From: Syntrophobacter sp. SbD2
GTDB lineage: Bacteria > Desulfobacterota > Binatia > UBA9968
NCBI GenBank assembly: GCA_945889495.1
Contig: CAMDBU010000051.1
Location: forward strand, 1-35,255
DNA length: 35,255 nucleotides
Reading direction: 5' to 3'
Under the pieces are notes generated by a model, which saw only the letters and a list, made by a program, of their open reading frames with translations, was not told the DNA's origin and ran no database searches. Positions 1,206-16,255 of the stretch are shown here, in pieces. Numbering within the stretch: the stretch's first letter is position 1; the number at the start of each line of letters is the position of its first letter. Position numbers and translations under genes: made by a program.

Positions 1206-1212
1206 TTGGTCG

Positions 1213-2223: not shown

Positions 2224-2244
2224 GTATGAGCCGGAGGCCGGAAA

Positions 2245-2265
2245 TCGGAAGTCAGGAGTCAGGAG
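2245..2265 (+). repeat. Heptamer array containing the ribosome binding site of the third gene
   Basis: Three exact 7-bp units: TCGGAAG, TCAGGAG, TCAGGAG. The AGGAG of the last unit is five bases before the ATG at 2271. Confidence 0.6.
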
Positions 2266-2270
2266 ATCGG

Positions 2271-3257
2271 ATGAAGATGCGGTTCTGGATAGGCGCTTTG
2301 ATTCTGCTTGTCTGCTTCAGTGCGGGACCAATCGAGGCCCAGGAGAAGTTTCGCTTCCCCATCGGCGAGTCTTCCAAAACTCTCAGCTACGGGCCGCTGT
2401 GGGTGGCGGCGAAGATGGGGTTCTTTGACAAAGAAGGTCTCGATGTCCCCATCGTCACCATGCGCGGTTCGCCGTTGACGATCCAGGCGCTCACCGCGGA
2501 TTCGATCTACGTTGCCAACGCGACGGTGGACACGCTGATCAGCGCCTATGAGAAGGGCGCCAGCGATTTGACCATGATCGGTGGGTTGATCAACGGATTA
2601 GGCTTGTCGATGATCGGCGGCAAGCAGTACAAAACCTACGCCGATCTGCGCGGCACGACCATAGGCACGCAGACGCTGACTTCCGGCACCGGCTTCGCGC
2701 TGCGGTTGGTTCTAAAAGCCCACGGTATGGAGTATCCGCGCGATTACAAGCTGCTCAACATTGGTGGCGCGGCGGATCGCTATCAAGCGTTAAACTCGGG
2801 GCAGATATCTTCGACCCCAGTGGGCGTGCCTTTGGATTTGGTCGCTAAACAACAGGGCTACAACATCATCGGCTATTTCGCCGACGATGAGCCGAACTTT
2901 CAGTTCAATGTTTATATCGTCAAAAAAACCTGGGCCGAGAAAAACCGCCCGCTGGTGCTGCGCTTCATGCGCGCCATGGTCTCGACCATGCGCTGGATGA
3001 ACGACAACCGCGACGCGGCTTGCGCTTATCTCAGCAAGGAAATGGTCATCAGTCTGGAGCATTGCCGCTACGCTTCGGACTACAATTGGAAGAGCAAGAT
3101 TTGGGACCGCAACGCCGATCTCAATGTCGAGGGCGTGCGTACTTTGATCAAGATCACCGCGGAGCAGGGGATTTTGAAAGAGCCGTTGCCGCCGCCGAGT
3201 AAATATATCGATCAAAGTTATGTTAAGCAGGCTTGGGCGGAATTAGCTAAGAAGTAA
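2271..3257 (+). CDS. NMT1/THI5-like (SsuA/TauA-type) substrate-binding protein
   Basis: A secreted solute-binding protein of the NMT1/THI5-like superfamily, which serves ABC importers for sulfonates, nitrate or pyrimidine precursors. An ATG at 2226 is in frame, but the start at 2271 has AGGAG five bases upstream and gives a clean signal peptide (hydrophobic IGALILLVCFSAG, cleavage near IEA/QEK). The mature part shows LSYGPLWVAAKMGFFDKEGL, the usual N-terminal ligand-pocket motif, then TYADLRGTTIGTQ and YPRDYKLLNIGG, and ends YIDQSYVKQAWAELAKK. It is clearly paralogous to the protein at 11071-12054, which shares YPRDYKLL, WAEKNRP and the YVDQSY tail. No permease or ATPase is nearby. The ligand is unknown. 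Confidence 0.88.
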   Translation: MKMRFWIGALILLVCFSAGPIEAQEKFRFPIGESSKTLSYGPLWVAAKMGFFDKEGLDVPIVTMRGSPLTIQALTADSIYVANATVDTLISAYEKGASDLTMIGGLINGLGLSMIGGKQYKTYADLRGTTIGTQTLTSGTGFALRLVLKAHGMEYPRDYKLLNIGGAADRYQALNSGQISSTPVGVPLDLVAKQQGYNIIGYFADDEPNFQFNVYIVKKTWAEKNRPLVLRFMRAMVSTMRWMNDNRDAACAYLSKEMVISLEHCRYASDYNWKSKIWDRNADLNVEGVRTLIKITAEQGILKEPLPPPSKYIDQSYVKQAWAELAKK

Positions 3258-3282
3258 GGGGTTAGGGGTAAGGAGTAAGGGG
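3255..3282 (+). repeat. Heptamer array spanning a stop codon, a ribosome binding site and a start codon
   Basis: Four exact 7-bp units: TAAGGGG, TTAGGGG, TAAGGAG, TAAGGGG. The first three bases are the TAA stop of the previous gene. The third unit provides AGGAG, and the last base begins the GTG start codon of the next gene. Confidence 0.6.
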
Positions 3283-4289
3283 TGAAAAAAATGCCGCGAA
3301 TCAACTTGATATTGTGCTTGCTTGTTGTTGGCTTTTGGCTTCCTTGGCATGGCGCGAACGCCCAGGACAAGATCAGCATGGGGCTGAGCTCAGTGAGCGC
3401 GCTGCATACCGCCACCTGGGTGGCCCAGGAGCGCGGGCTGTTTCGTAAACATAACATCGACGCCGAAGTCATCGTTACCGGGCAGGGCGGCACGGTCGGC
3501 ATCGCGGCGCTGCTGTCCAACGATGTCCAAATAATTAGTTCCGCGGGCGACTTGTTAGCCGCGGCGGCGCTGCGCGGCGGCGAAGCCGTGATGCTCGCCG
3601 GTGTCGTCAACAAAGGTTTGCAGCGCATCTTGACGGTGCCCGAGATCAAAACCCCCGCCGATCTAAAAGGCAAGCGCGTCGGCGTCACGCGCATCGGCGC
3701 GGTTTCCCATGTCGTCCTGCAGATGATGATGCAGCGATGGAAGATGAATCCCGCCGACGTTCAAGTCATGCAGGTCGGCACCTCCCCGGATATGCTGATC
3801 AGTCTGGATAAAAAAGGCATCGACGCCGCGGTGTTGACCATCCCATCGATGTTCGTCGCCGAAGACCGCGGCTATCGCGTGCTCATCGACATGGCGGATA
3901 CCGACATTTTTTACCTCCACACCATGATCGGCTCGACCCGCGCCTACGTCAAAAACAACCGCGACAAAGTATCGCGCTTTTTGAAGGGTTATTTGGAAGG
4001 CATCGCCTTCGTCAAGCAAAACCGCAAGGAGAGCATCGAAATCGTCAAGAAAAAGCTCCGCATCGGTCCGGCCCAGGAGCGTAATCTGGTGCGGGCGGTG
4101 GACTTGGTCGCCGATAAGTATTACGAGCAGGTGCCCTATACTTCGCAGCGTGGCGTTGAGACGGTGTTGGGGTTCATCGAGAAAGACAATCCCAAGGCCA
4201 AAACCGCCGACCCCAAGTCGTTCTACGACGACAGCCTGTTGCGCGAGATCGAGCAGAGCGGCTTCGTCAAGACGCTCTACGCACGTTGA
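3282..4289 (+). CDS. NMT1/THI5-like substrate-binding protein, paralogue A
   Basis: A secreted NMT1-type solute-binding protein of 335 residues. A GTG start at 3282 is six bases after AGGAG; an ATG at 3291 is an alternative. The signal peptide (LILCLLVVGFWLPW) ends at ANA before QDKISMG. Core motifs are SALHTATWVAQERGLFRKHN near the N-terminus, IVTGQGGTVGIAALLSNDVQ, TPADLKGKRVGVTRIGAVSH and the DTDIFYLHTMIGSTRAYVK hinge region. The protein at 5057-6058 is a close paralogue along its full length. A two-gene toxin-antitoxin-like cassette separates the two copies. The transported ligand cannot be read from the sequence. Confidence 0.88.
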   Translation: MKKMPRINLILCLLVVGFWLPWHGANAQDKISMGLSSVSALHTATWVAQERGLFRKHNIDAEVIVTGQGGTVGIAALLSNDVQIISSAGDLLAAAALRGGEAVMLAGVVNKGLQRILTVPEIKTPADLKGKRVGVTRIGAVSHVVLQMMMQRWKMNPADVQVMQVGTSPDMLISLDKKGIDAAVLTIPSMFVAEDRGYRVLIDMADTDIFYLHTMIGSTRAYVKNNRDKVSRFLKGYLEGIAFVKQNRKESIEIVKKKLRIGPAQERNLVRAVDLVADKYYEQVPYTSQRGVETVLGFIEKDNPKAKTADPKSFYDDSLLREIEQSGFVKTLYAR

Positions 4290-4391
4290 GATGTTGGTTT
4301 CATAACTGGCTTCGCTGCGTATGGTCGCGGTGGCATATACCGTGCTAAGGTAGCGTCAAAACGGTGTGCAGCGAGATTGAGGGCCATCGGC

Positions 4392-4715
4392 GTGGATGTC
4401 GAAATAATTCGCCAACGAATTCGCGCCGGGAACTACCTCATCAAGAGCCACGCCATTCAACATGCTTTGAAGCAGGGCTTTGAACGCAAGCACATCGTTG
4501 ACGCCGTGCTCGATGGAAACTTAATCGAGGAATACCCCGACGAACCACGGATGCTTTTATGCGGCAAAACCAACCTTTCGCCAAACGTCGACATATACTT
4601 GCATGTCGTTTGCGAATTTGCCGATCCGATGTACGTTGAGTTCGTGACCGCTTATATCCCGGATGAAACCGATTGGGAGAGCCCGCCATTTCGGCGGCGA
4701 CGAAGAGAGAGGTGA
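4392..4715 (+). CDS. DUF4258 domain protein, probable toxin-like partner
   Basis: A protein of about 107 residues resembling DUF4258: an early SHAIQHALKQGFERKHIVDAV segment, then LDGNLIEEYPDEPRMLLCG, a strand with LHVVCEFADPMYVEFVTAYIPD, and a basic tail FRRRRRER. The GTG at 4392 has GAGGG eight bases upstream and is preferred; an in-frame TTG at 4377 would add five residues. The next gene begins three bases after this stop, so the two are cotranscribed. DUF4258 proteins often occur beside YgiT-type zinc-finger genes, a layout suggestive of toxin-antitoxin modules, but toxicity is inference. The cassette interrupts two paralogous solute-binding genes. Confidence 0.72.
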   Translation: MDVEIIRQRIRAGNYLIKSHAIQHALKQGFERKHIVDAVLDGNLIEEYPDEPRMLLCGKTNLSPNVDIYLHVVCEFADPMYVEFVTAYIPDETDWESPPFRRRRRER

Positions 4716-4718
4716 AGT

Positions 4719-4982
4719 ATGACGATCGAGACTGCACCTATCTGTAAAGAGCACCGGATTGCGAAATCATGGTGCAAAACAACCTTTGAGTACAGCGAAG
4801 ACGGTATCGCCGTTCGCGTGCCGAATGTTTACGCATGGGTGTGCACGCTGGATGGCGAAGCCTCCTTCACCCCAGAAACCGTTGACGAGCTAATTACCAC
4901 GGTGCGTGAACTGATCGAGCCGGCAAAACGGGCGCGGCAACGTCGATCGGGCCTGACGGAATACATCGTTTCAGTCATCTAA
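4719..4982 (+). CDS. Degenerate YgiT-type zinc-finger protein, putative antitoxin partner
   Basis: A protein of 87 residues starting three bases after the DUF4258 gene. The middle, VRVPNVYAWVCTLDGEASF, has the shape of the YgiT/MqsA N-terminal zinc-finger domain (typically VPALVCPQCGE), followed by a helix PETVDELITTVRELIEP. The usual first Cys-x-x-Cys is CKEH here and the second is CTLD, so two of the four zinc ligands are changed; a neighbouring Cys at residue 19 and His at residue 12 might compensate. No helix-turn-helix domain follows. By position and fold it is the likely partner of the DUF4258 protein. The exact function is not established. Confidence 0.6.
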   Translation: MTIETAPICKEHRIAKSWCKTTFEYSEDGIAVRVPNVYAWVCTLDGEASFTPETVDELITTVRELIEPAKRARQRRSGLTEYIVSVI

Positions 4983-5056
4983 GTATCTTCGCCTTGATCG
5001 CATGCTGGCGTTTCGCCGCAATGGGTCGTTAACCGTAGTCTGATAATCATGCGCCG

Positions 5057-6058
5057 ATGAAAAAGCTCACTGGATACTTCATCCTGACCTCGCTGCTTGT
5101 CACGACTTATGGCGCACCAACGGCGGCGCAGGAAAAGCTCCGCGTTGGCTTGAGTTCGGTGAGCGCGCTGCATAGCGCCATGTGGGTGGCTGAGCAAAAA
5201 GGGTTTTTCCGCCGCCATGGCATCGACGCGGAGATCATCGTCACCGGCCAGGGCGCGGCGACCGGGATCAGTGCGCTGTTGGCCAACGATATCCAGATCG
5301 TTAGCTCCGCCGGTGACTCACTGGTCAATTCCGCGTTGCGCGGCGGTGAGACCGTGATGATCGCCGCCGGCGTCAACCGCGGCTTGAATCGCATCATGGT
5401 GCGCCCAGAGATTAAAACCCCCGCCGATCTGCGCGGTAAAAAGATCGGCGCCACCCGGGTCGGCGCGGTGTCCCATTCGGTGCTCATGATGATGCTTAAG
5501 CGCTGGAACATTAACCCGAACGATGTTCAGGTGCTCCAGTTGGGCTCGTCGCCGAACATGCTGTCGGCCTTGGAGAAGGGTGGCATCGACGGCGCGGTGA
5601 TGACCATTCCCTTTGTGTTTGTCGCCGAGGATCGCGGCTCGCGGGTGCTGATCGATCTGGCCGAGACCGATATTTTTTACTTACACACCATGCTCGCCTC
5701 GACGCGTAGTTTCATAAAAACCAAGCGCGACAGCGCGCTGCGCTTTTTGCGTGGCTTCGTCGAGGGCATCGCCTATTTCAAGCAAAACAAAAAAGAGAGC
5801 CTGGAGATCGTCCGCAAGAAGCTCCGGGTCAACGCCGATCAGGAGCGCAATCTGGAGCGCTCCTACGATTTACTGGCGGCGAAATATTACGAAGCGATGC
5901 CCTATCCGTCGCTGCGCGGCGTCGAGACCGTGCTCGGCCTGGTCGAAAAGGACAATCCCAACGCCAAAACCGCTGACCCCAAATCTTTCGTCGACGACAG
6001 TCTACTGCGCGAGATCGACGCCAGCGGCTTTATCAAGACGCTCTATCCGGCGCGCTAA
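5057..6058 (+). CDS. NMT1/THI5-like substrate-binding protein, paralogue B
   Basis: A secreted solute-binding protein of 333 residues, closely similar to the one at 3282-4289. Shared blocks include the SALHSAMWVAEQKGFFRRHG entry motif, IVTGQGAATGISALLANDIQ, TPADLRGKKIGATRVGAVSH and DTDIFYLHTMLASTRSFIK, with a matching C-terminus around NAKTADPKSFVDDSLLREI. The signal peptide covers about the first 25 residues (TGYFILTSLLVTTYGA, cleavage near TAA/QEK). The ribosome binding site before the ATG is weak. It was probably separated from its twin by insertion of the toxin-antitoxin-like pair. No membrane transporter partner is visible. Confidence 0.88.
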   Translation: MKKLTGYFILTSLLVTTYGAPTAAQEKLRVGLSSVSALHSAMWVAEQKGFFRRHGIDAEIIVTGQGAATGISALLANDIQIVSSAGDSLVNSALRGGETVMIAAGVNRGLNRIMVRPEIKTPADLRGKKIGATRVGAVSHSVLMMMLKRWNINPNDVQVLQLGSSPNMLSALEKGGIDGAVMTIPFVFVAEDRGSRVLIDLAETDIFYLHTMLASTRSFIKTKRDSALRFLRGFVEGIAYFKQNKKESLEIVRKKLRVNADQERNLERSYDLLAAKYYEAMPYPSLRGVETVLGLVEKDNPNAKTADPKSFVDDSLLREIDASGFIKTLYPAR

Positions 6059-6161: not shown

Positions 6162-6992
6162 ATGGCTTTAACACTATGGAAAGATTATAAGACCGTCAAA
6201 GTGGAAAAGGACGACGGCACGACTTGGGTGACTCTCAACAGGCCGGAGAAGCGTAACGCGATGAACCCACAGCTTCATTACGATATGCTCGAAGCTTTGA
6301 CTGAACTGGAAGTCGACAAAGAGACGCAAGTGGTGGTGCTCACCGGCGCCGGGCCGAGCTGGTGCGCCGGGCAGGATCTGCGCGAATATTTCCGGGGCAC
6401 CGATAACAACGCGCTGGAACGGCGCAAAGCTAGCTGGGCTTCGCAGGAATGGCGCTGGCGCCGGCTGTTTTACTTCCCCAAGCCGACCATCGCCATGGTC
6501 AACGGCTTCTGCTTCGGCGGCGCCTTTACGCCGCTCATCGCTTGCGACTTCGCCATTGCCTCCGATACTGCGACCTTCGGTTTGAGCGAAATCAACTGGG
6601 GCATTTTCCCCGGCGGATTGGTTAGCCGCGTGTTAGTCGATGCCATGAGTTATCGCGACGCCATGTGGTACATCATGACCGGCGATCCCTTCGACGGCAA
6701 AAGAGCCGCGGAAGTGAAGCTGGTTAATTTTTCCGTGCCACCGGAGAAGCTGCGCGAAGAAACCATCAAGCTCGCCGACAAGCTCAAGAAGAAAAACCCC
6801 GCGGTGCTGCGCGCCGCCAAGGAAGTTTACAAACACTGCCGCACCATGGACTACAGCCAGGCCGAAGAATACATGTCGGCCAAGGGCACCGCGCTCCGTC
6901 TCACCGACCCGGAGAAGGGCCGCGAGACCGGCATGGAACAGTTCCTCGACAAGAAGACCTATCGGCCGGGGTTGGGCGAATATAAACGCTAA
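6162..6992 (+). CDS. Crotonase-family p-hydroxycinnamoyl-CoA hydratase/lyase-like enzyme
   Basis: A 276-residue enoyl-CoA hydratase/isomerase family enzyme, most like p-hydroxycinnamoyl-CoA (feruloyl-CoA) hydratase-lyase, which hydrates an aryl-propenoyl-CoA and splits it by retro-aldol reaction to an aromatic aldehyde and acetyl-CoA. Seen here: LNRPEKRNAM, TGAGPSWCAGQDLREYF, KPTIAMVNGFCFGGAF (oxyanion hole), the hallmark FGLSEINWG with Glu143 where the Pseudomonas enzyme, as I recall it, has its catalytic glutamate, and the C-terminal ending PGLGEYKR. By eye alignment the tyrosine near 75 that helps hold the 4-hydroxyl is kept (Tyr76), but the second one, Tyr239, is Ser, and Ser123 is Thr. 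So the substrate may not be a 4-hydroxy aryl compound. An AAGGAGG site precedes the ATG. It heads a four- or five-gene catabolic series. Confidence 0.85.
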   Translation: MALTLWKDYKTVKVEKDDGTTWVTLNRPEKRNAMNPQLHYDMLEALTELEVDKETQVVVLTGAGPSWCAGQDLREYFRGTDNNALERRKASWASQEWRWRRLFYFPKPTIAMVNGFCFGGAFTPLIACDFAIASDTATFGLSEINWGIFPGGLVSRVLVDAMSYRDAMWYIMTGDPFDGKRAAEVKLVNFSVPPEKLREETIKLADKLKKKNPAVLRAAKEVYKHCRTMDYSQAEEYMSAKGTALRLTDPEKGRETGMEQFLDKKTYRPGLGEYKR

Positions 6993-6997
6993 AAAAT

Positions 6998-7127
6998 TAA
7001 TGGATAATGGATAATTGAGAATGGATAATTATCGGAGGGGCGCTGCCGCAACTATGTGGCAGTGCCCTCTTCGGTAATTTTTCTTTTCTTCCCATTATCC
7101 ATTTTCCATTATCAATTATCCATTTTT
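6998..7127. repeat. Palindromic element with heptamer arms (TGGATAA type), copy 1
   Basis: The left arm (about 6998-7030) is tandem 7-mers TGGATAA, TGGATAA, TTGAGAA, TGGATAA. The right arm (about 7091-7127) read in reverse complement is TGGATAA, TTGATAA, TGGAAAA, TGGATAA. Between them, GAGGGGCGCTGCC and GGCAGTGCCCTC pair as an inner stem. It fills the gap between the hydratase and dehydrogenase genes. A second copy of this family lies at 9619-9716. Confidence 0.8.
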
Positions 7128-7149
7128 CCTTTCTACGCTGAGCTGATCC

Positions 7150-8310
7150 ATGGATTTCAATCTTCCCGAAGAACTGCAACTGCTGAAAGAGACCGTCCGC
7201 AAATTCGTCGACCGTGAGCTGATCCCGCTGGAGCGGGAGTGCCGGCCGGAAGGCGAGGATATGCCGGAGCAGTTTATCGCGCCGCTGCAAGAGAAGGCCA
7301 AGGCGATCGGGCTCTGGCTACTTGACGTGCCGCAGGAATACGGCGGCGCCCGCCTCGACTTGATGAGCCGTTGCGTGATCATGGAAGAGGTCGCGCGCAC
7401 CATCGCGATTCCGTTTCGCTACGCGCCGATTTTTGGCCCGGAAGTGCGGCCGGTGCTGTTTCACTGCAACGACGAACAGAAAAAGAGATTTTTGCAGCCG
7501 GTGATCGACGGCAAAATCAAAATCTGCTTCGCCCAGACCGAGCCCGACGCCGGTAGCGATCCGGCCGGCATGAAGACCCGCGCGGTCAAAGACGGCGATC
7601 ATTACGTCATCAACGGCACCAAACGATTTATCACCGGCGCCAAGAGCGCCGACTATGCGCAGGTGATCGCGGTCACCGATCCGGCCAAGGGGGCGCGCGG
7701 CGGCGTCAGCTGCTTCATGGTCAGCATGAAGGCGCCGGGCGTGACCCTGGAAAAGCTCTGGCCGACCATGATGGGCGACACGCCGGGGCAGATTCATTTT
7801 GAAAACGTCCGGGTGGCGGCGGCCGATATGATCGGCGGCGAAGGGCAGGGCTTTTCCATCGCGCAAAAATGGATTGAAGAAGGGCGCGTGCGTGGCCATG
7901 GCGCGCGGCCCGTCGGTATCGCTTCGCGCGCGCTGGACATGATGATCGAGTATTCCAAAGTGCGCACGACTTTCGGCCAGCCATTGTCCAACCGCCAGGC
8001 GATTCAGTTCATGATCGCCGACTCGGCCATGGAGCTGCACGCTTGCCGCTTGATGGTTTACGAGTGCGCTTGGCGCCACGACCGCGGCGAAGACATCCGC
8101 CAGCTCTCTTACATGACGAAAATCCAATGCGCCGAGATGGCCGGCCGGGTGGTCGACCGCTCGATCCAAGTGCACGGCGGCTTGGGACTGATGCGCGAGC
8201 TGCCGCTCGAATGGTGGTATCGCCAGGTGCGCAGCCTGCGGATTACCGAGGGCACGCCGGAAGTGCTGCGCTGGCGGCTGGCCGAGCACATCATCAGAAA
8301 TCACAAGTGA
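7150..8310 (+). CDS. Acyl-CoA dehydrogenase
   Basis: A 386-residue FAD-dependent acyl-CoA dehydrogenase that introduces an alpha,beta double bond into an acyl-CoA and passes electrons to an electron-transfer flavoprotein. Domains in order: N-terminal helical bundle (FNLPEELQLLKETVRKFVDRE, about 1-115), central beta domain with CFAQTEPDAGSDPAGMKTR and NGTKRFITGA, and C-terminal helical domain with the RTTFGQPLSNRQAIQFMIAD and QVHGGLGLMRELPLEWWYR motifs. The ITEGTPEVLR motif near the end places the probable catalytic base at Glu367, as in medium-chain enzymes. Between a hydratase/lyase and two CoA-transferases, it most likely desaturates the CoA thioester the transferases make. There is no clear ribosome binding site because a palindromic element ends about 22 bases upstream. 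Confidence 0.92.
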   Translation: MDFNLPEELQLLKETVRKFVDRELIPLERECRPEGEDMPEQFIAPLQEKAKAIGLWLLDVPQEYGGARLDLMSRCVIMEEVARTIAIPFRYAPIFGPEVRPVLFHCNDEQKKRFLQPVIDGKIKICFAQTEPDAGSDPAGMKTRAVKDGDHYVINGTKRFITGAKSADYAQVIAVTDPAKGARGGVSCFMVSMKAPGVTLEKLWPTMMGDTPGQIHFENVRVAAADMIGGEGQGFSIAQKWIEEGRVRGHGARPVGIASRALDMMIEYSKVRTTFGQPLSNRQAIQFMIADSAMELHACRLMVYECAWRHDRGEDIRQLSYMTKIQCAEMAGRVVDRSIQVHGGLGLMRELPLEWWYRQVRSLRITEGTPEVLRWRLAEHIIRNHK

Positions 8311-8324
8311 GAGAGACGAGAAGA

Positions 8325-8393
8325 ATGGAGTACTGGAGTGGTGGAGTGATGGGTTCGGATCAGAACCAGTACTCCAATACTCCATCACTCCAA
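8325..8393. repeat. Palindromic element with octamer arms (TGGAGTAC type)
   Basis: The left arm is three 8-mers TGGAGTAC, TGGAGTGG, TGGAGTGA. The right arm in reverse complement is TGGAGTGA, TGGAGTAT, TGGAGTAC. The loop is about 18 bases (around 8351-8367). It sits between the acyl-CoA dehydrogenase and the first CoA-transferase gene. Confidence 0.78.
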
Positions 8394-8412
8394 TTTCCCG
8401 GGTGACCCTTCC

Positions 8413-9621
8413 ATGAGCATTACAATCGAACCAGTTGCGCTACTCCCCGGCTACCGAGTTCTAGATCTGTCCTCTTCTATGGGATCGTTCTGTGGCAAGG
8501 TGCTGCGCGACCTCGGCATGGAAGTGATCAAGATCGAGCCACCGGGCGGTGACGCTGGGCGCTTGGAGCCGCCGTTTGCCAAAGGGCACGCCCACCGCGA
8601 GGGCAGTTTACGTTTCGCCTATCTCAATGGCGGCAAGAAGAGCGTGACGCTCGACATCGCCAAGGACGATGGCCGTAGGATTTTTCTCGATCTGGTGGCC
8701 AAGTCCGACGTCGTGCTGGAGACGTTTACGCCGGGCGAACTGGCGGCGAACCAACTCGGCTACGCGCAGCTGTTGGAAAAGCAATCGAAGCTGATTCTAG
8801 TTTCGCTCACCGGCTTCGGTCAGGATGGACCCTACGCGCACTACAAAGCGCCGGACATCGTCGGCAACGCCATGGGCGCGCTGCTCTACATCAGCGGTGA
8901 CCCCAAGATGACGCCGTGCAATCCGCCGGAGACTCAGGCCTATTATTACGCCAGCTTGATGGCTGGCTACGGCACCATGCTGGCGCTCTGGCAGCGCGAG
9001 ATGCGCGGCATCGGTGCTTGGATCGATGGCTCGGTGCAGGCGAGCATGGCGTTGCACGAGCATGTGGCGTTTAACTACGCGGCGGAAAAGCGCGTCATGA
9101 AACGGGCCGGCAGCCAGCACCAGCACAACGCGCCGGCCAATTTGTTTCAGTGTAAGAACGGCTGGATCGCGCTGTTTGTCACGCAGACCCACTGGCCGCT
9201 CTTGCTTAAGGTCTGGGACAACCACGCGCCGGAGTTGGACGACCCCAAATGGATCAACAGCAACCTGCGGCGCAAAGAGGCTGACTACATCAACGCCGAG
9301 GTGACTTCATTTACCATGCGTTTCACCAAGGAAGAGCTTGCCGAGCTGATGCAAAAGCATGGCATCCCCGGTCTGCCGGTGAACTCGCCGTCGGACTTCA
9401 TGAAGGACCCGCATATCCAGGCGCGCAACTTCTTTAGCCAAGTGACCCATCCGGTGCTCGGTACTTATGACGCGCCGGGAAGTTTCTTCACCGTCAACAG
9501 TAAACGCGGCGGCCCGGCGCCGGCGCCGCTTCTGGGGCAGCATAATCATGAGATATTCGCCGGCGAATTGGGCTTGAGTGCCGAGACTTTGGCGGTGCTG
9601 ACGGCGGAACAAGTAATTTAA
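8413..9621 (+). CDS. CaiB/BaiF class III CoA-transferase homologue, possibly non-catalytic subunit
   Basis: A 402-residue member of the CaiB/BaiF (class III) CoA-transferase family, whose enzymes move CoA between carboxylates through an aspartyl-CoA thioester. Seen: YRVLDLSSSMGSFCGKVLRDLGMEVIKIEPPGG at the N-terminus, LNGGKKSVTLDIA, SLTGFGQDGPYAHYKAPD and the C-terminal PSDFMKDPHIQARNFF block. Where family members have the catalytic Asp (about residue 169 in formyl-CoA transferase), eye alignment of AYYYASLMAGYGTMLALWQR puts Tyr177. The next gene encodes a second family member that keeps the Asp, so this may be the structural half of a heteromeric transferase. The TAA stop is the first part of a palindromic element. 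Confidence 0.86.
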   Translation: MSITIEPVALLPGYRVLDLSSSMGSFCGKVLRDLGMEVIKIEPPGGDAGRLEPPFAKGHAHREGSLRFAYLNGGKKSVTLDIAKDDGRRIFLDLVAKSDVVLETFTPGELAANQLGYAQLLEKQSKLILVSLTGFGQDGPYAHYKAPDIVGNAMGALLYISGDPKMTPCNPPETQAYYYASLMAGYGTMLALWQREMRGIGAWIDGSVQASMALHEHVAFNYAAEKRVMKRAGSQHQHNAPANLFQCKNGWIALFVTQTHWPLLLKVWDNHAPELDDPKWINSNLRRKEADYINAEVTSFTMRFTKEELAELMQKHGIPGLPVNSPSDFMKDPHIQARNFFSQVTHPVLGTYDAPGSFFTVNSKRGGPAPAPLLGQHNHEIFAGELGLSAETLAVLTAEQVI

Positions 9622-9716
9622 TGGATAATGGATAATGGATAATTGATAATGTGAAGAATCGATCGGCGTTGGGTTGTCCGATCATTATCCATTATCCATT
9701 GTCAATTATCCATTAG
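9619..9716. repeat. Palindromic element with heptamer arms (TGGATAA type), copy 2
   Basis: The left arm is TGGATAA three times, then TTGATAA. The right arm in reverse complement is TGGATAA, TTGACAA, TGGATAA, TGGATAA. The core contains GATCGG and CCGATC as an inner stem. The left arm starts within the stop codon of the upstream gene, and the right arm ends nine bases before the next start codon. Confidence 0.82.
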
Positions 9717-9724
9717 TTGAGACT

Positions 9725-10939
9725 ATGGAAACTCCCAATCAGATACTCAAAGGCGTCCGCATACTGGCCTTCACCACCGGCTACGCCGGTCCTTACGCCG
9801 GCAGGTTATTGGCCAATTACGGCGCGGAGGTGATCAAGATCGAGTCGCGCAAGGGTGGGCTCGATACCTTTCGCCATTACGGCCAGCATAAGGACATCGA
9901 CGAGGCGCCGCGCTTTATCGAGTGCAACTTGGGCGTGCGCTCGCTGGCGATCAATTTAAAGAACCCCACCGGTACCCGGCTGATCCGCGAGCTTGCCGGT
10001 AAATCGGATGCGATCTTGCAGAATTTCCGTCCTAGAGTGCTGGATAAACTTGGTCTGGGCGACGAGGATCTGCGCAAAGTTAATCCAAAGCTTGTGATCG
10101 TCAAGCTGCCCGGCTTCGGCACCGAAGGGCCCAAGAGCAGCTACGGGACCTGGGGTTTCAACCTCACCGCTTTCTCCGGCATCACCTATCTGTGGAATCA
10201 TCCCGAGCAGGACCGGCCCATCGGCAGCCAGGGCGTTTATCCGGATCATTTAGGCTTCGTCTTGGGACCGACAATGATGATCGCGGCTTTGCTCAACAGC
10301 CGGCGCAGCGGCAAGGGCGTGACAATTGACCTCGCGCAGATTGAAGGCACGGCGGCGGTGCTGGGCACGACCTACTTGGAGACTTCGGTCAACGGCGACG
10401 ATCCCAAACCGCGCGGCAATCACTACGCCTTGGCCGCGCCCCACGGCGTCTACCGCTGCCAGGGCGACGATCGGTGGTGCGTGATCTCGGTGCGCGACGA
10501 TGACGAGTGGCGAAACTTTTGCCGGGTCGTCGGCCGCGGCGATCTAGTCAGTGACCGGCGCTTTACCACGCTGCAACTGCGGGTCGAAAACCGCGCGGCG
10601 CTTGACGCCATGGTCAGCGAATGGACCTTAGCGCGCCCGGCCGAAGAGGTGATGACCCGGTGCCAAGCTGCCGGCGTGCCGGCCAGCGTCGTCCAGACCG
10701 GCGCCGACTTACTGAAAGATCCGCAGCTGCGCCACCGCAACTATTTCTCCGCCTTCCCCGATTCGCTCATCGGCTCCTTCGAAATTCCCCGCAGCGGATT
10801 CCTCTTCAAAGGTGTTCCAGAAGATCCGCTCAAACTGCCGGCGCGCTTCGGCTCCGACAACGACCAGATATTGGGCGAGCTTCTAGGTTATGACAAAGCG
10901 ACCATCGAGCAGTGGCGGCAGGAAGAAGTGCTGACTTAG
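9725..10939 (+). CDS. CaiB/BaiF class III CoA-transferase, catalytic-type
   Basis: A 404-residue CaiB/BaiF CoA-transferase. An in-frame ATG at 9674 would add a peptide encoded by the palindromic element, so the start at 9725 (METPNQILKGVRILAFTTGYAGPYAGRLLANYG) is preferred. It shows the usual first strand and dimer-interlock motifs: GAEVIKIES, LGVRSLAINLKNPTG, LPGFGTEGPKSSYG, then VYPDHLGFVLGPTMMIAALL with Asp174 in the catalytic-Asp position, RRSGKGVTIDLAQIEG and a C-terminal DLLKDPQLRHRNYF. It follows a homologue in which this residue is Tyr. Together they may form a heteromeric enzyme like benzylsuccinate CoA-transferase; the partner acid is unknown. Confidence 0.9.
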   Translation: METPNQILKGVRILAFTTGYAGPYAGRLLANYGAEVIKIESRKGGLDTFRHYGQHKDIDEAPRFIECNLGVRSLAINLKNPTGTRLIRELAGKSDAILQNFRPRVLDKLGLGDEDLRKVNPKLVIVKLPGFGTEGPKSSYGTWGFNLTAFSGITYLWNHPEQDRPIGSQGVYPDHLGFVLGPTMMIAALLNSRRSGKGVTIDLAQIEGTAAVLGTTYLETSVNGDDPKPRGNHYALAAPHGVYRCQGDDRWCVISVRDDDEWRNFCRVVGRGDLVSDRRFTTLQLRVENRAALDAMVSEWTLARPAEEVMTRCQAAGVPASVVQTGADLLKDPQLRHRNYFSAFPDSLIGSFEIPRSGFLFKGVPEDPLKLPARFGSDNDQILGELLGYDKATIEQWRQEEVLT

Positions 10940-11070
10940 AAGCGTTCAATCCGTTCAAGACGCTCAAATCGTTTCGAATGGAAGTCGTCTCGGCCAAGGT
11001 TCATGTGAATTCGTATGGGGCGCCGCGCGCACCAGCCAACCCAGCGCTCGTGGCCTCGCAGGAGAAAACG

Positions 11071-12054
11071 ATGGCGTTACCAGGTTCTCGGGCTATCGCG
11101 GTTCTCGTCTTTCTTCTCACAGCGAATATTTGCGGCGCCCAGGAGCGCGTCAGGCTGCGCATCAGCTCGGCGACCAAGACGCTAGGCTATGGGCCGTTGT
11201 GGATCGCCTCGCGCATGGGATTTTTCGCCAAGCAGGGGCTCGATGTTGACTTGGTGGTGATTCGCGCATCGGATGTCGGCATTCAAGCGCTGGCGGGGGA
11301 TTCGCTAGAGATCGCCGGAAGCTCGTCGGACGCGCCGATCGCCGCCATCGAGAAAGGGCTCGATCTGGTGATCGTCGGCGGGATCATCAATGGTTTGACC
11401 CAGTCGATTATGGCGGCGAAGCGGTTCAAGACTTACAACGATCTACGCGGCGCCACCTTTGGCGCCATCAGCCTCACCTCCGGCGTCACCTTCGCGCTCC
11501 GTCAAGTACTGAAGCTCAAGGGGCTGGAGTATCCGCGCGATTACAAGCTCCTGGTTATTGGCGGCACGCCGCAGACTTACGCCGCCCTGGTCGCCGGCTC
11601 CATCGACGCCGCGGCGCTGTCGCTGCCGGTCAACTACGCCGCCGAAGAGCAGGGCTTCAACGAGATCGGTCGCTTCGTCGACGTCATGCCCAATTACCAG
11701 TTAGCGGCGCTGTCGGCTAAGCGTTCCTGGGCGGAAAAAAATCGCCCGGTGCTGGTGCGCGTCATGCGCGCCATGGCCCAGACCATGCGCTGGATTCATC
11801 AAAACAAAGAACCAGCGGCCAATTACCTCGCCAAGGAAATGAACCTAAAACCCGACCACGCCCGGCGCGGCTGGGAATTCTACACCTCAACCAAGATGTG
11901 GCACCCCGACGGCGATGTGAACCTCGAAGGCCTGCAAAACGTCACGCAGATTTATTGGGAACAAAGCCAAGCCAAATGGCCAGTGCCGAGCGCGGTCAAG
12001 TATGTTGATCAGAGTTACTTGCGGGAGGGGTTGAGGGAATTGGGGGGACGGTAA
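11071..12054 (+). CDS. NMT1/THI5-like substrate-binding protein at the end of the catabolic series
   Basis: A secreted solute-binding protein of 327 residues. The reading frame opens at 10912 inside the previous gene, but the ATG at 11071 has AGGAG six bases upstream and starts a proper signal peptide (AIAVLVFLLTANICGA, cleavage near GA/QER). Motifs: TKTLGYGPLWIASRMGFFAKQGL, FKTYNDLRGATFG, LEYPRDYKLLVIGG, SWAEKNRPVLVRVMRAMAQTMRW and a YVDQSYLREGLREL tail. It is paralogous to the protein at 2271-3257. It lies 131 bases after the CoA-transferase gene on the same strand, so it plausibly binds the substrate of that pathway. Importer membrane and ATPase subunits are absent from the window. Confidence 0.87.
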   Translation: MALPGSRAIAVLVFLLTANICGAQERVRLRISSATKTLGYGPLWIASRMGFFAKQGLDVDLVVIRASDVGIQALAGDSLEIAGSSSDAPIAAIEKGLDLVIVGGIINGLTQSIMAAKRFKTYNDLRGATFGAISLTSGVTFALRQVLKLKGLEYPRDYKLLVIGGTPQTYAALVAGSIDAAALSLPVNYAAEEQGFNEIGRFVDVMPNYQLAALSAKRSWAEKNRPVLVRVMRAMAQTMRWIHQNKEPAANYLAKEMNLKPDHARRGWEFYTSTKMWHPDGDVNLEGLQNVTQIYWEQSQAKWPVPSAVKYVDQSYLREGLRELGGR

Positions 12055-12129
12055 CCTGTCGACAATTTATAAGTGTTCGAAGGCGAGGCGGATGCATTTC
12101 CATTTCGCTGCTAGGCCCAGGTTGTTGGA

Positions 12130-12158
12130 TTGGGTTTTCGTTGCGTCTCTGCGATAAT
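12130..12158 (+). promoter_or_regulatory. Candidate promoter of the DUF6932-type pair, possibly leaderless
   Basis: GATAAT at 12153-12158 is one base from the -10 consensus and lies 17 bases after a partial -35 TTGGGT (12130-12135). Transcription would begin near 12165, almost on the ATG at 12168, which has no ribosome binding site. A leaderless transcript is possible. Confidence 0.35.
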
Positions 12159-12167
12159 GACAGCGTT

Positions 12168-12620
12168 ATGGCGGAACCCCTATTCGATGCTGCTATTCCA
12201 CCGTTCCGCTCGGATGGCTATTTGCCGGTAGGGGTACATGTTTGCTCCGAGGCGGAAGTGCTGTTTCGTTTTGGCACTTCCAATCGTCGTCGTCGACGGT
12301 TGGCGATTCGGTTGCGCCGGTGGATTGAACTGGGCCGACAAGTTGAGGCTCGGCGGCTTCTGGTTGACGGTAGTTTTGTCACGGCAAAAGAGGAACCAGG
12401 AGACATCGACTCGGTCATGCTTCTGCCGCAGGATTTTTACCGAAGGGTAATGCGCGAAGACGTCGCGGCGACGGAGCTGGAGCAGATGTTTTTGACCCGT
12501 CAGCCCGAGGAGCTTTTTGCCGCTGAAGATGAGATCGATTGGGATGAGTGGATTGCGTTCTTTAGCCAGACCCGCGAACCGGATAAACGCCGGAAAGGGC
12601 TTGTGGAGGTCCGTTTATGA
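12168..12620 (+). CDS. DUF6932-type nucleotidyltransferase-like protein
   Basis: A protein of 150 residues from the ATG at 12168 (an in-frame start at 12141 would add nine residues). It opens with AIPPFRSDGYLPVGVHVCSEAEVLFRFG and carries LLVDGSFVTAKEEPGDIDSVMLL, which matches the GS-x10-DxD pattern of minimal nucleotidyltransferases, with the two acidic residues in GDID. This combination is what I recall for DUF6932 proteins, often found with small partners in toxin-antitoxin-like pairs. The C-terminal third is acidic with a tryptophan-rich DEIDWDEWIAFF patch and ends in a basic stretch. The next gene overlaps it by four bases (ATGA), so translation is coupled. Transfer of a nucleotide to RNA or protein is inferred from the motif only. 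Confidence 0.65.
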   Translation: MAEPLFDAAIPPFRSDGYLPVGVHVCSEAEVLFRFGTSNRRRRRLAIRLRRWIELGRQVEARRLLVDGSFVTAKEEPGDIDSVMLLPQDFYRRVMREDVAATELEQMFLTRQPEELFAAEDEIDWDEWIAFFSQTREPDKRRKGLVEVRL

Positions 12621-12826
12621 TCGCTAATGCCGAGCAATATCAAACGGCGCAAAAAGAACTGCGTCAACTGGAAGATCGTCTTAGTCGGCTACAGCAAGAA
12701 TTTCCCCTCGGCGTCAAGGGTCTCACCAAGGCTGGGGTGCGAAAACTGATCGCGCGATTGCATGAAGAGTTGGCGGTGTATGAAGGAAACCTCGAAGCCA
12801 ATCGAGCCGGTCCGCTATTGTCATGA
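12617..12826 (+). CDS. Small coiled-coil protein coupled to the DUF6932-type gene
   Basis: A protein of 69 residues whose ATG overlaps the preceding stop codon by four bases. It is almost wholly helical: QTAQKELRQLEDRLSRLQQEF, a short glycine turn GVKGLTKAG, then VRKLIARLHEELAVYEGNLEA, i.e. a helical hairpin with heptad leucines. Similar N-terminal hairpins precede an XRE helix-turn-helix domain in some antitoxin-like proteins; here no DNA-binding domain follows. It is likely the binding partner, perhaps antitoxin, of the nucleotidyltransferase-like protein. It converges on recQ, with 15 bases between stop codons. Confidence 0.6.
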   Translation: MIANAEQYQTAQKELRQLEDRLSRLQQEFPLGVKGLTKAGVRKLIARLHEELAVYEGNLEANRAGPLLS

Positions 12827-12841
12827 TCTGATTTGCCCGGG

Positions 12842-14710
12842 TTACGTATCCATCTCCAACCGCTTCTCCCGGCAATAGTTCGATATCGCCTCCAGAAACG
12901 GCTGGCCGATGTCGGCGAGCTTCTTTTCACCAACGCCTTTGATATTTAGCAGCGAGCCCGGCGAGCCCGGTCTCACCTTCGCCATGTCGCGTAGGGTGGC
13001 GTCGTTGAATAGCACGTAGGCCGGCACGCCGCGTTGGTCGGCGAGTTTTCGACGTAAACCGCGCAGGGCTTCGAACAAACCTTCGTCGACGTTTTCCCAG
13101 GATTTTTCGTCGAAGCGGGTTTTTTTTACTTTCACTTTGGTTTTGGGCTCGACCAGTTGGACGGTGCGTTGGCCCTTCAAGACGGCGCGGGAGGCGTCGT
13201 TCAGGCGCAGCACGGGATATTCCTCGTCGCTGCGTTCGAGCAGGCCGTTGTCGATCAGTTGATAGACTAAGTTGGTCAGCGACTTGCGGTCGGTGTCTTT
13301 CATCAGCCCGTGGGTGCTGAGCTTGTCGTGGCCCCAGCGGCGCACCCGTTCGGTGTCGGCGCCGGCGAGCACGTCGACGATATGGGCGGCGCCGAAGCGC
13401 TCGCCGACGCGGGCGACGCAGGAAAGGATTTTTTGTGCTGTCACGGTTCCGTCGGCCAAGCCTTCGACTTCGCTGAGACAGACGTCGCAGGCTTCGCAGT
13501 TGGCTTTCGGATAGGCCTGGCCGAAATATTCCGACAATTTTTTATGGCGGCAGTGGACGCCGCTACAAATCTGCCGCATATGGTCGAGCAGCTGGCGTGA
13601 GGCGGCGATGGACTCCGGCGTGGCATCGGCTTGGTTGGCGTTGCGCGTGATCAAGGAATCCCAGCGCATGGCGTCGGCGGCGGAGTAGAGGAGCACGCAC
13701 TCGGCTTCCAAACCGTCGCGGCCGGCGCGGCCGGTTTCCTGCTGGTAATGTTCCACTGACTTGGGCATGGCGGCGTGGATGACGCAGCGCACGTCGCTGC
13801 GGTCGATGCCCATGCCGAAGGCGACCGTGGCGGCGACGACGTCGAGCGCTTCGGAGGCGAACTCTTCTTGAGTTCGGCGGCGCTGGTCGGCCTCCATGCC
13901 GGCGTGGTAATGGGCGGCGCGAATTCGATTGGCCTGGAGGAACGATGCCATGGACTCGGTGTCGTTGCGGCTGATGCAGTAGACGATGGCGGCTTGGTTC
14001 TGGTGGCGCTTCAAGATTTCCAACACCTGGGCGCGGGCGTCGTAGCGCGGCACGATGCGATAGACCAAGTTGGGGCGGTCGAAGATGCCGACTAACAATT
14101 CTGGATTGCGCAGCTTCAACTGCTCGGCGATGTCGAGGCGGACGCGATCCGTCGCTGTGGCGGTGTAGGCGTGCAGGCTGGCTTTGGGAAAATATTTTTT
14201 CAGCTCGGCCAGGCGGCGGTATTCGGGCCGGAAATCATGGCCCCAATGGCTGATGCAATGCGCTTCGTCGATGGCGAAGGCGTCGATCTTGATCTTCTCG
14301 GCGAGGCGCAGGAACTGTGGAGTCAGCAAGCGCTCCGGCGCGACGAACAGCAGTTGATAGCGCCCGGCGAGAAACTGCGCTTCGGTTTCCTGGATCGCAT
14401 GGGCCGGCATGCCGCTGTAGAGTGCCCCGGCCGGATAGCCGCACTCGCGCAGGCCGTCGACCTGATCCTTCATCAAGGAGATGAGCGGCGAGATGACGAT
14501 GTCGGTGCGTTTGCCGACCGCCGGCGGAATCTGGTAGCACAGCGACTTGCCGCCGCCGGTGGGCATGACCACCAGCGAGTCGCGGTGATTCAGTTCCGCC
14601 TGGATCGCCTGCTCTTGCAGCGGCCGCAGCTCGTTGTAGCCCCAATAGCGGCGCAGGGTGTCGAGGATGGCGGAATTCTCGTATGGGCTGGTTGACGGCT
14701 CGCGTTTCAC
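12842..14710 (-). CDS. recQ: ATP-dependent DNA helicase RecQ
   Basis: A 622-residue 3'-5' superfamily 2 DNA helicase acting in recombination and fork repair. Order: LRPLQEQAIQ, Walker A PTGGGKS at residues 50-56, SPLISLMKDQVDGL, the DEAH box DEAHCISHWGHDFRPEY, TATATDRVR, helicase C domain with GRAGRDGLEAEC, the RQC zinc-binding cluster (Cys residues in CSGVHCRHKKL and NCEACDVC), a winged-helix RQC region and a C-terminal HRDC domain (LRGLRRKLADQRGVPAYVLF to LLNIKGVGEKKLADIG). Length matches the full bacterial RecQ type. The start is a GTG (minus strand, 14710) with AAGG directly upstream, so a slightly different start is possible. Confidence 0.96.
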   Translation of the reverse strand: MKREPSTSPYENSAILDTLRRYWGYNELRPLQEQAIQAELNHRDSLVVMPTGGGKSLCYQIPPAVGKRTDIVISPLISLMKDQVDGLRECGYPAGALYSGMPAHAIQETEAQFLAGRYQLLFVAPERLLTPQFLRLAEKIKIDAFAIDEAHCISHWGHDFRPEYRRLAELKKYFPKASLHAYTATATDRVRLDIAEQLKLRNPELLVGIFDRPNLVYRIVPRYDARAQVLEILKRHQNQAAIVYCISRNDTESMASFLQANRIRAAHYHAGMEADQRRRTQEEFASEALDVVAATVAFGMGIDRSDVRCVIHAAMPKSVEHYQQETGRAGRDGLEAECVLLYSAADAMRWDSLITRNANQADATPESIAASRQLLDHMRQICSGVHCRHKKLSEYFGQAYPKANCEACDVCLSEVEGLADGTVTAQKILSCVARVGERFGAAHIVDVLAGADTERVRRWGHDKLSTHGLMKDTDRKSLTNLVYQLIDNGLLERSDEEYPVLRLNDASRAVLKGQRTVQLVEPKTKVKVKKTRFDEKSWENVDEGLFEALRGLRRKLADQRGVPAYVLFNDATLRDMAKVRPGSPGSLLNIKGVGEKKLADIGQPFLEAISNYCREKRLEMDT

Positions 14711-14739
14711 ACCTTATTCAAACCATGAGCGAAGACGCT

Positions 14740-14832
14740 AGGCAACAGGCAATAGGCAACAGGCAACAGTAAGAAAATAGTTCCGGAGCGGCTGGTTCCT
14801 GTTTGAAATCTGAGATCTGGAATTTGAAATCT
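14740..14832. repeat. Heptamer array (GGCAACA) plus a TTTGAAATC direct repeat
   Basis: At 14740-14767 there are four 7-bp units: AGGCAAC, AGGCAAT, AGGCAAC, AGGCAAC. At 14802-14832 the nonamer TTTGAAATC occurs twice around TGAGATCTGG. Unlike the other elements, the two sides do not pair, so this may be two half-elements. It fills the gap between recQ and the metallo-hydrolase gene. Confidence 0.6.
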
Positions 14833-14833
14833 T

Positions 14834-15544
14834 TTAAATCCCCTCGCCCTGGCCGCGTTGGCGGTAGATCGGCGTGCGGTTCCACTCCAGCGCTTCTTGG
14901 ATCTTGCGCGGCAGCGGCGGGTGGCGCGAGGTCATGAAGTGGATAAATTCATCGCGCGACTGGATGGTTAGGCGGGGATTTTTTTGCTTCTCGTCGCCCA
15001 GGCTCGACACTGCTTCGCGATAGTCGTGGCCGGGATAAACCCGGAGGTCGTTGCCGAGCGCTTCCAGGCGGCGCAGGCTGTCCCATTGCTGCTCGGCGCT
15101 GCCGCCGGGCAGGTCGGTGCGGCCGCAGCCGCCGATCAGCAAAGTGTCGCCGGTGAAAATCCGGTCGCCCCACAACAGGCACATGGCGTCCTGGGTGTGG
15201 CCCGGCGTGTAGATGACTTTGAGCGCTTGCTGGCCGAAGCGGATTTCATCGCCGTCTTCGACCCGGACATCGACGTAAGGTGCATCGGTGGCGCGGTGCA
15301 TGACGACCTTGACGCCGTAGCGCTCGCGCATCAGTTTGCAAGCCGAGTTGTGGTCGGCGTGAGTGTGGGTGTCGACGACGTAAAGTAGTTTGGCACCCAA
15401 GAAGTCCACCAAGCTGGCGTAATCGTCGGTCTTGTCGATCTCCGGATCGATGACAACGCAGACTTTTTCTTGGGCGCAGCCGATGAGGTAGGAGAGGCAG
15501 CCGCTGGAGCGAATCTGTTCGAAGAGGATTTCGTTGCCGCTCAT
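14834..15544 (-). CDS. Metallo-beta-lactamase fold persulfide dioxygenase-like protein (ETHE1 type)
   Basis: A 236-residue MBL-fold hydrolase. Metal motif DTHTHADHNSA gives His60, His62, Asp64 and His65; further ligands are His116 (TPGHT), Asp133 (TGDTLLIGGCGRTDLPGG) and His173 (YPGHDY). The GGCGRTDLPGG loop after the Asp and YPGHDY are hallmarks of ETHE1-like persulfide dioxygenases, which oxidise glutathione persulfide to sulfite with a His2-Asp iron site. A glyoxalase II or generic hydrolase role is less likely from these motifs. The next minus-strand gene upstream is a cysteine-dioxygenase-like cupin, so the pair may handle reduced organic sulfur. There is no clear ribosome binding site before the ATG. 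Confidence 0.85.
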   Translation of the reverse strand: MSGNEILFEQIRSSGCLSYLIGCAQEKVCVVIDPEIDKTDDYASLVDFLGAKLLYVVDTHTHADHNSACKLMRERYGVKVVMHRATDAPYVDVRVEDGDEIRFGQQALKVIYTPGHTQDAMCLLWGDRIFTGDTLLIGGCGRTDLPGGSAEQQWDSLRRLEALGNDLRVYPGHDYREAVSSLGDEKQKNPRLTIQSRDEFIHFMTSRHPPLPRKIQEALEWNRTPIYRQRGQGEGI

Positions 15545-15580
15545 GGGGAATTTATTCGTTATGATTTCGGAACTCGGATT

Positions 15581-15668
15581 AGCTCTCGCAAAGGCGCCAA
15601 GCTCGCAAAGTTCGGAGGAAATTAGTTACGGTTTCCGAACTTAGTGTCCTTGCGCCTTTGCGGGAGAA
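15581..15668. repeat. Palindromic element with nonamer arms (CGCAAAG/CGCCAAG type), copy 1
   Basis: The left arm divides into 9-mers TCTCGCAAA, GGCGCCAAG, CTCGCAAAG, then TTCGGA. The right arm in reverse complement repeats CCCGCAAAG, GCGCAAGG and AAGTTCGG. A related copy lies at 19070-19148. Confidence 0.78.
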
Positions 15669-15691
15669 ATTTCCGAATCTTGATTGTCCGT

Positions 15692-16255
15692 CTACCGCGC
15701 TGGCACCGGGATTACCGTGCCTTTTTCCAGGTTGAACCGGCTGCGGTTGATCTTATCGAGGTCGTAGCTCAAGAACCGGAAGACGACGCCCGGCCCTTGG
15801 GCGGCGTGGGTCGAGTGGATATCGCCGGTGACGTAGGGGACGACTTTGCCGGCGCTGAGAGTGTCGAGGCGGTCCTTCTCTAATTTACACTTGCCGGCTT
15901 CCGAGCCGTCGTCGGTGCGTTTGTATTTGGTGATCTCGGTGACGCCGCTGAAGGCGCCGTAAACCACCCAACAGGGGCCGTGGTCATGGGGCGTGTTGCC
16001 GTGGCCCTGCTTGTGCACATGGCCCATTTGGATGAAGCCGTGGTCGGGGTCGCGGTGCAGTTCGCGGGACGGCTTGCCGTCGCGGATGATCTCGGCCATC
16101 CACGGGTCGTCTGGTTTCGTCGAGGCGAACAGTTTTTCCATCAGACCGGCGACTTTGTCGGGCAGCTGCGGGTCCTTGCCGTCGCCCCAGACGGCGCGCA
16201 CTTCGGCGATATAGCGGTCGAAAGAATTTTCAGCGTGGCGTTCCTGTACGGCCAT
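15692..16255 (-). CDS. Cysteine-dioxygenase-like cupin
   Basis: A 187-residue single-domain cupin. TPHDHGPCWVVYGAF carries the HxH metal pair (His90, His92) with Cys95 a few residues on, as in thiol dioxygenases, and DIHSTHAA provides a third His (147 or 150). An N-terminal helical segment (DRYIAEVRAVW, VAGLMEKLFAS) resembles that of cysteine dioxygenase and its COG5553 relatives. The likely reaction is iron-dependent oxygenation of a thiol or similar small acid, but the substrate cannot be fixed. AAGGAGG seven bases before the ATG supports the start. It lies upstream of the ETHE1-like gene on the same strand, separated by a palindromic element. Confidence 0.75.
   Translation of the reverse strand: MAVQERHAENSFDRYIAEVRAVWGDGKDPQLPDKVAGLMEKLFASTKPDDPWMAEIIRDGKPSRELHRDPDHGFIQMGHVHKQGHGNTPHDHGPCWVVYGAFSGVTEITKYKRTDDGSEAGKCKLEKDRLDTLSAGKVVPYVTGDIHSTHAAQGPGVVFRFLSYDLDKINRSRFNLEKGTVIPVPAR

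Follow-up and report, generated by a model that had tools for sequence, protein, structure and literature searches.

In a 35,255-nt stretch of DNA from Syntrophobacter sp. SbD2 (contig CAMDBU010000051.1, positions 1 to 35,255; hereafter the window), we identified a gene cluster at 6162-12054 in which a protein of the p-hydroxycinnamoyl-CoA hydratase/lyase (HCHL) type is encoded together with an acyl-CoA dehydrogenase (ACAD) and 2 subunits, CTA and CTB, of a putative heteromeric CoA-transferase. We consider it somewhat likely that these 4 enzymes perform a non-β-oxidative (retro-aldol) shortening of the side chain of a propanoate with a substituent at C3, which would most likely be an aryl or other ring group. 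All parts belong to established families, and HCHL pathways provide precedent for the chemistry; what appears to be new is the pairing with a heteromeric CoA-transferase.

In the proposed route, CTA and CTB would transfer CoA from a donor (succinyl-CoA or acetyl-CoA) to the acid, a step suggested by their family and by the missing ligase. ACAD would then, as its family implies, desaturate the saturated acyl-CoA at the α,β position to a 2-enoyl-CoA, which the HCHL homolog would hydrate before cleaving the 3-hydroxyacyl-CoA into an aldehyde and acetyl-CoA, as homology and its Glu143 indicate. Finally, the aldehyde would be oxidized by an aldehyde dehydrogenase encoded elsewhere. The sequences establish the gene content, its conservation in order, and the two-subunit build of the transferase; we infer the identity of the substrate, the CoA donor, and the cleavage. 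As the initial annotation had noted, aldehyde dehydrogenase and thiolase are lacking here: a domain scan of 30 open reading frames (ORFs) of the window, a set outside which smaller or overlapping ORFs lie, detected neither. Its description of the gene content as a complete route is overstated, since aldehyde oxidation would depend on other regions of the host genome (G000; 5.64 Mb, 239 contigs, 95.6% complete), where 7 aldehyde dehydrogenase matches were found, none of them on this contig.

The first gene of the cluster (6162-6992, + strand) encodes 276 aa and scored 402 bits against the NCBIfam family NF006588, "p-hydroxycinnamoyl CoA hydratase/lyase" (cut-off 276), with the next family at 160 bits; its closest sequence match in the PDB was 2j5i (E 3e-94). 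An AlphaFold model built from 14 sequences (mean predicted local distance difference test score (pLDDT) 80.6) had 2j5i_F as its top PDB fold match, with a template modeling (TM) score of 0.84 by query length and a root-mean-square deviation of 1.4. Furthermore, Glu143, which we take to be the essential residue of HCHL, is present in the window protein as well as in all 46 homologs from the fetched loci (at least 35% identity). These matches support the assignment of the predicted crotonase to the lyase type, as the initial annotation had proposed.

The substrate is less readily read from the protein. Tyr75 and Tyr239 presumably form the pair that binds the 4-hydroxyl of p-hydroxycinnamoyl-CoA in HCHL. 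Tyr75 is kept in the window protein and is Phe in 10 of the 46 homologs, including those of 2 metagenome-assembled genomes (MAGs) titled as Acidobacteria (L069 and L071). At position 239, the window protein has Ser, and Tyr occurs in none of the 44 fetched homologs with a residue there (2 gaps), although the most distant homologs are aligned less reliably at this site. By contrast, 2j5i has Tyr239, as do 3 of the 8 HCHL copies from plasmids (2 from Rhizobiaceae and 1 from Burkholderia). The exchange of Tyr239 for Ser argues that the substrate is probably not ordinary p-hydroxycinnamate, and the ring is probably not recognized via its 4-hydroxyl in the classical manner. Because Tyr239 is absent from the window protein and from the fetched homologs, the name of NF006588 provides no evidence of the substrate; this family includes proteins without Tyr239, to which we presumptively assign a role in specificity, and its name should be read with that warning in mind. 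The best-fitting substrate would be an aryl- or ring-bearing propanoate for which p-hydroxylation is not required, so that the aryl-propanoate-like acid of the initial annotation stays plausible, with Ser at position 239 as the point against it. Some neighboring genes in related loci fit ring metabolism: a LigB-type dioxygenase adjoins an HCHL in L074, and an amidohydrolase family 2 protein and a small Rieske protein, both divergent, adjoin HCHL-ACAD-CTA-CTB in L069 (2135-3722) and L071 (5938-7519). The host genome contains 4 LigB-family matches, none on this contig.

CTA (8413-9621, + strand, 402 aa) and CTB (9725-10939, + strand, with ATG 9725 as the likely start) both matched CoA_transf_3 (PF02515), with 290 and 309 bits, respectively (cut-off 23.3). 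Asp148 of CTA is invariant in 15 of 15 aligned sequences and aligns with the Asp of 9fn0 chain A (benzylsuccinate CoA-transferase); we take the active-site aspartate of family III to be Asp169 of formyl-CoA transferase. In CTB, the same position is occupied by Gly145, which is likewise invariant (14 of 14 aligned). The best PDB match of CTA was 9fn0_A and that of CTB was 9fn0_B. Moreover, CTA and CTB lie in a single frame without a stop at 13 of 22 loci, comprising 12 of a distant class (44-50%) and L071, which otherwise has the gene order of the window; the check covered 900 nt of CTB, or less where the contig stopped earlier. Among the 9 loci in which CTA and CTB are not in one frame are L085 and L089 of the distant class as well as L077. 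The combination of a subunit with and a subunit without the aspartate, the matches to different BbsEF subunits, and the gene fusions are good evidence that CTA and CTB form one heteromeric transferase with a single, predicted catalytic subunit (CTA) and a proposed non-catalytic partner (CTB), which bears out the initial annotation on this point. An AlphaFold model of the fused protein of L071 (805 aa, 5 sequences) had a mean pLDDT of 63, too low for use. On plasmids, the best CTA relative among the matches listed was 36% identical (187 records, all below 60%), and the one plasmid region with a CTA relative that was inspected holds a different CoA-transferase + thiolase cluster.

ACAD (7150-8310, + strand, 386 aa) contains the N-terminal, middle, and C-terminal ACAD Pfam domains, and its top PDB matches include short-chain ACADs. 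Glutamate 367, in the motif ITEGT, is kept in 39 of 40 relatives scored (41 distinct matches), and 4 relatives from family f1, to which the window belongs, are 93-97% identical. Further ACAD paralogs of 76% and 73% were found on host contigs C151 and C32 (L155 and L156), with no HCHL or CoA-transferase match in the fetched stretch.

Gene order was surveyed in 20 loci whose CTA relative reaches about 56% identity or more (the window, L039-L050, L054-L056, L058, L069, L071, and L073), with each genome counted once where handles overlapped. HCHL-ACAD-CTA-CTB occurs in 9 of them, i.e., the window, 6 other f1 genomes (L039, L040, L041, L043, L045, and L046), and the 2 Acidobacteria-titled MAGs L069 and L071, whose proteins are 70% (HCHL), 63-64% (ACAD), 62-63% (CTA), and 61% (CTB) identical to those of the window. 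In L045, ACAD is split across 2 frames and CTB runs past the contig end. Another 3 loci end at a contig break inside ACAD or CTA (L042, L044, and L050), and in L073, for which only 1 kb upstream was covered, an HCHL of 46% comes after CTA-CTB. Outside this survey, CTA-CTB adjoins an HCHL, with no ACAD, in 2 Chloroflexi-titled MAGs (L074 and L077; CTA 48-50%), and contig C165 of the host genome carries a diverged second cluster with fused CTA-CTB, HCHL (43%), and ACAD (57%). This conserved order makes chance adjacency unlikely, and a chance neighborhood was rejected, given that the same arrangement is found in different genera and under different phylum labels.

The initial annotation stated that known phenylpropanoid pathways use an ATP-dependent ligase and that a transferase version would be different. 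Loci were searched with tblastn for ligases, using 5 query proteins (3 from counted plasmid loci and 2 from counted Binatia loci) against stretches of 7-35 kb for the loci with CTA/CTB and 5-20 kb for the others. A ligase lies within the HCHL stretch in all 7 plasmid loci picked from 170 records (5 AMP-forming and 2 NDP-forming; L161 and L164 are unannotated, and the match in L161 is of only 30%). Likewise, all 4 HCHL loci fetched from family f3, out of 8 f3 genomes with HCHL, have tandem HCHLs with an NDP-forming acyl-CoA synthetase nearby (L150 at 7691-15769, L146, L149, and L151). Pfam matches confirm the synthetase and TctABC transporter domains in L150 alone, which also encodes a dienelactone-hydrolase-like protein. 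Where a ligase lies near these HCHL relatives, no transferase is found. In contrast, no match to the 5 ligase queries was found in the window or in the other 8 four-gene loci, a negative that covers the fetched stretches, with distant or elsewhere-encoded ligases beyond its scope. An aldehyde dehydrogenase was matched in 6 of the 7 plasmid loci and, with the same 2 queries, in none of the 9 four-gene loci. Since HCHL relatives elsewhere lie near a ligase and none was matched in these 9 loci, the CoA-transferase probably replaces the ligase in this cluster. The distinction drawn by the initial annotation is thereby upheld, and its general statement about known pathways agrees with the 7 plasmid loci and is contradicted by FldA, a known phenylpropanoid CoA-transferase (parts of PMC5758686).

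Not all related loci follow this division. Among the 8 f1 loci with HCHL and without CTA/CTB, a ligase was found in 1 (G007, L137), where it is AMP-forming and immediately precedes an HCHL of 46%; the orthologous HCHL-ACAD pair follows on the same strand after about 3 kb. HCHL paralogs on host contigs C7 and C70 (L051 and L053) and a 48% relative in G043 (L152) had neither a ligase match nor CTA/CTB in the stretch. In a tree of 53 HCHL rows, from which a duplicate (L001) and distant rows (L004, L076, and L134) were left out, the group of 30 that contains the window (98/94) is separate from the group (99/98) in which 2j5i and the plasmid copies fall. On this tree, at least 5 changes are required for the label "next to CT", which is an overcount, as some rows labeled "none" stop at contig breaks (L144, L147, and L148); the changes would fit a partner that has been exchanged or lost repeatedly.

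The cluster shares features with several known systems. Like the HCHL/ferulate (hca) clusters, it encodes an HCHL-family lyase; unlike them, it has a CoA-transferase pair, whereas all 7 loci examined there use a CoA ligase of the AMP- or NDP-forming kind and 6 of the 7 carry an aldehyde dehydrogenase close to the lyase, which is also missing here. In Neorhizobium petrolearium, HCHL, ACAD, ligase, and aldehyde dehydrogenase occur together, with an ACAD that is only 27% identical. The hca genes include one for an acyl-CoA dehydrogenase, HcaD; in Cupriavidus basilensis B-8, they are dispersed (PMC3560178). CTA and CTB resemble BbsEF in consisting of 2 unlike family III subunits, one of which has the aspartate in alignments. 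According to portions of a further report (PMC10818641), BbsEF acts ahead of an acyl-CoA dehydrogenase, with succinyl-CoA as donor. The bbs pathway continues with hydratase, dehydrogenase, and thiolase, whereas the window encodes a lyase instead and no benzylsuccinate synthase counterpart was found (no PF02901 match in the genome).

CoA-transferases of phenylpropanoid metabolism are relevant here as well. FldA serves phenylalanine fermentation, not side-chain cleavage, and the caffeate CoA-transferase CarA of Acetobacterium woodii activates a phenylpropenoate in an ATP-saving CoA loop that belongs to caffeate respiration and likewise involves no side-chain cleavage. FldA of Clostridium is a cinnamoyl-CoA:phenyllactate CoA-transferase that works on phenylpropanoid acids, as proposed here for CTA/CTB, and is reported, in sections of the same source, to be inactive with acetyl-CoA as donor (PMC5758686). 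A loop is conceivable for the window too, with CTA/CTB taking the lyase-released acetyl-CoA as donor and CoA circulating between transferase and lyase, so that a non-phenolic aryl or cyclic propanoate would yield an aldehyde and free acetate with no ATP spent on activation. We regard this form of the route as possible though doubtful, and the inactivity of FldA with acetyl-CoA calls for caution about such a donor. No account of HCHL combined with a heteromeric CoA-transferase, including the CoA-loop form, was found in the paper searches, which covered an open-licence library.

Several observations weigh against retro-aldol side-chain shortening by the 4 enzymes as a unit. With Tyr239 lost, it is uncertain whether the protein would act as a lyase on a cinnamoyl-type CoA. 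Nor do the 4 genes always occur as a set: 7 of the 20 surveyed loci, all of family f3, have ACAD-CTA-CTB with no HCHL in the stretch, and in an eighth f3 genome outside the survey (G029), the coordinates place ACAD, CTA, and CTB one after another. In the f3 genome G027 (97% complete), ACAD-CTA-CTB occurs with no HCHL match at E 1e-50, and there the transferase may serve something else. G005 has CTA-CTB with a best HCHL match of 54%, its CTA contig being cut inside ACAD. Conversely, 8 f1 genomes (G007, G008, G009, G011, G016, G018, G019, and G024) lack CTA and CTB orthologues although their HCHL is 75-83% identical; contig breaks may hide the latter in some of them, with 5 of the 8 at least 91% complete. 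In 7 of these 8, no ligase match was found in the fetched stretch either. Finally, the intergenic spacers measure 102-157 nt and contain repeat elements, which does not speak for tightly coupled genes. Of the five-gene order that the initial annotation proposed to look for in relatives, the part formed by the 4 enzyme genes is retained in 9 of 20 loci, and its generality is limited by the exceptions in f1 and f3.

The loss of Tyr239 also leaves room for the HCHL homolog acting as a hydratase only, with the cluster forming the front of an ordinary β-oxidation whose later enzymes, 3-hydroxyacyl-CoA dehydrogenase and thiolase, are encoded elsewhere; PMC3560178 indeed mentions a β-oxidative route for ferulate that involves HcaD, HcaA, and a thiolase. 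We consider this unlikely, as the protein groups with HCHLs and not with plain enoyl-CoA hydratases by profile (402 versus 160 bits) and by structure match, and the 30 scanned ORFs of the window contain neither a thiolase nor a hydroxyacyl-CoA dehydrogenase domain. The exceptions in f3 and f1 could instead reflect 2 independent modules that happen to be adjacent, ACAD-CTA-CTB acting on one acid and HCHL(-ACAD) on another: f3 genomes hold ACAD-CTA-CTB apart from HCHL, as G027 illustrates, and ACAD adjoins HCHL in 6 of the 8 f1 genomes without CTA/CTB. That reading is quite improbable in our view, given that all 4 genes occur together in 9 loci with 2 kinds of phylum label, that CTA-CTB adjoins HCHL even without ACAD in the Chloroflexi-titled MAGs, and that C165 of the same genome combines the 3 functions again. 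A substituted-succinate pathway, in which CTA/CTB would act as BbsEF, ACAD as BbsG, and the lyase would cut benzylidenesuccinyl-CoA into benzaldehyde and succinyl-CoA, shares its first 2 steps with BbsEF and BbsG (parts of PMC10818641) and accords with the 2 benzylsuccinate CoA-transferase subunits as best PDB matches, but it is highly improbable, and a benzylsuccinate-type pathway was mostly rejected, because the 95.6% complete genome has no match to a glycyl radical enzyme (PF02901), the scanned window ORFs have no thiolase domain, and CTA scores almost as high against a succinate-hydroxymethylglutarate CoA-transferase (152 bits) as against the Bbs chain (155 bits).

If the retro-aldol route is correct, this phenylpropanoid pathway would have a form in which CoA transfer takes the place of an ATP-dependent ligase for activation, present in Binatia-type genomes and in Acidobacteria- and Chloroflexi-titled MAGs, and a broader set of genes would have to be looked for in soil and lignin-carbon metabolism. 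The energy-saving CoA loop, if it exists, would be directly testable.

The cluster comprises 5 open ORFs, all on the + strand, the last of which (11071-12054) encodes an NMT1/SsuA-type periplasmic binding protein (PF09084, 65 bits); ATG 11071 is its likely start, since a signal-peptide-like stretch comes after it. A relative of this gene follows CTB in 7 of the 9 other f1 stretches fetched, L045 being cut at CTB and L046 lacking it. The role in uptake that the initial annotation assigned to this protein finds no support: no permease or ATPase domain was found in the scanned window ORFs, and the excess of NMT1-type proteins makes its presence nonspecific, the host genome having at least 150 such matches (150 scored of 482 first-look candidates) versus 70 permease-domain matches. 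The same-strand run starts before HCHL, with 5 more binding-protein genes at 181-6058 (+ strand; 2 ABC_sub_bind and 3 NMT1 type by domain matches). Some of these have relatives before HCHL at several f1 loci, and they are probably accessory or unrelated to the cluster.

The genes of the cluster may form one operon. The spacers contain repeat elements at 6994-7131 and 9615-9718, and a similar element at about 8325-8394 was recognized by eye only. Their arms, which face each other as inverted repeats, are built of heptamer-like units in tandem, of the ATGGATA type or, in the element at 8325, of the TGGAGTA type. The ATGGATA-type pattern had 11 exact matches genome-wide, 2 of them in the window, and a reversed control had 0. 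Promoter-like sites (9 versus 5.5 in shuffles, standard deviation (sd) 2.1) and terminator-like sites (24 versus 14.4, sd 3.9) were somewhat over background, several lying within repeats, and were not used. Elsewhere in the window, a Phd/YefM-type antitoxin gene lies at 27837-28130, with no evident toxin partner among the ORFs scanned. The remaining scanned genes are housekeeping or unrelated, and encode RecQ, MutS, GlnD, ScpAB, and ThiF, among others.

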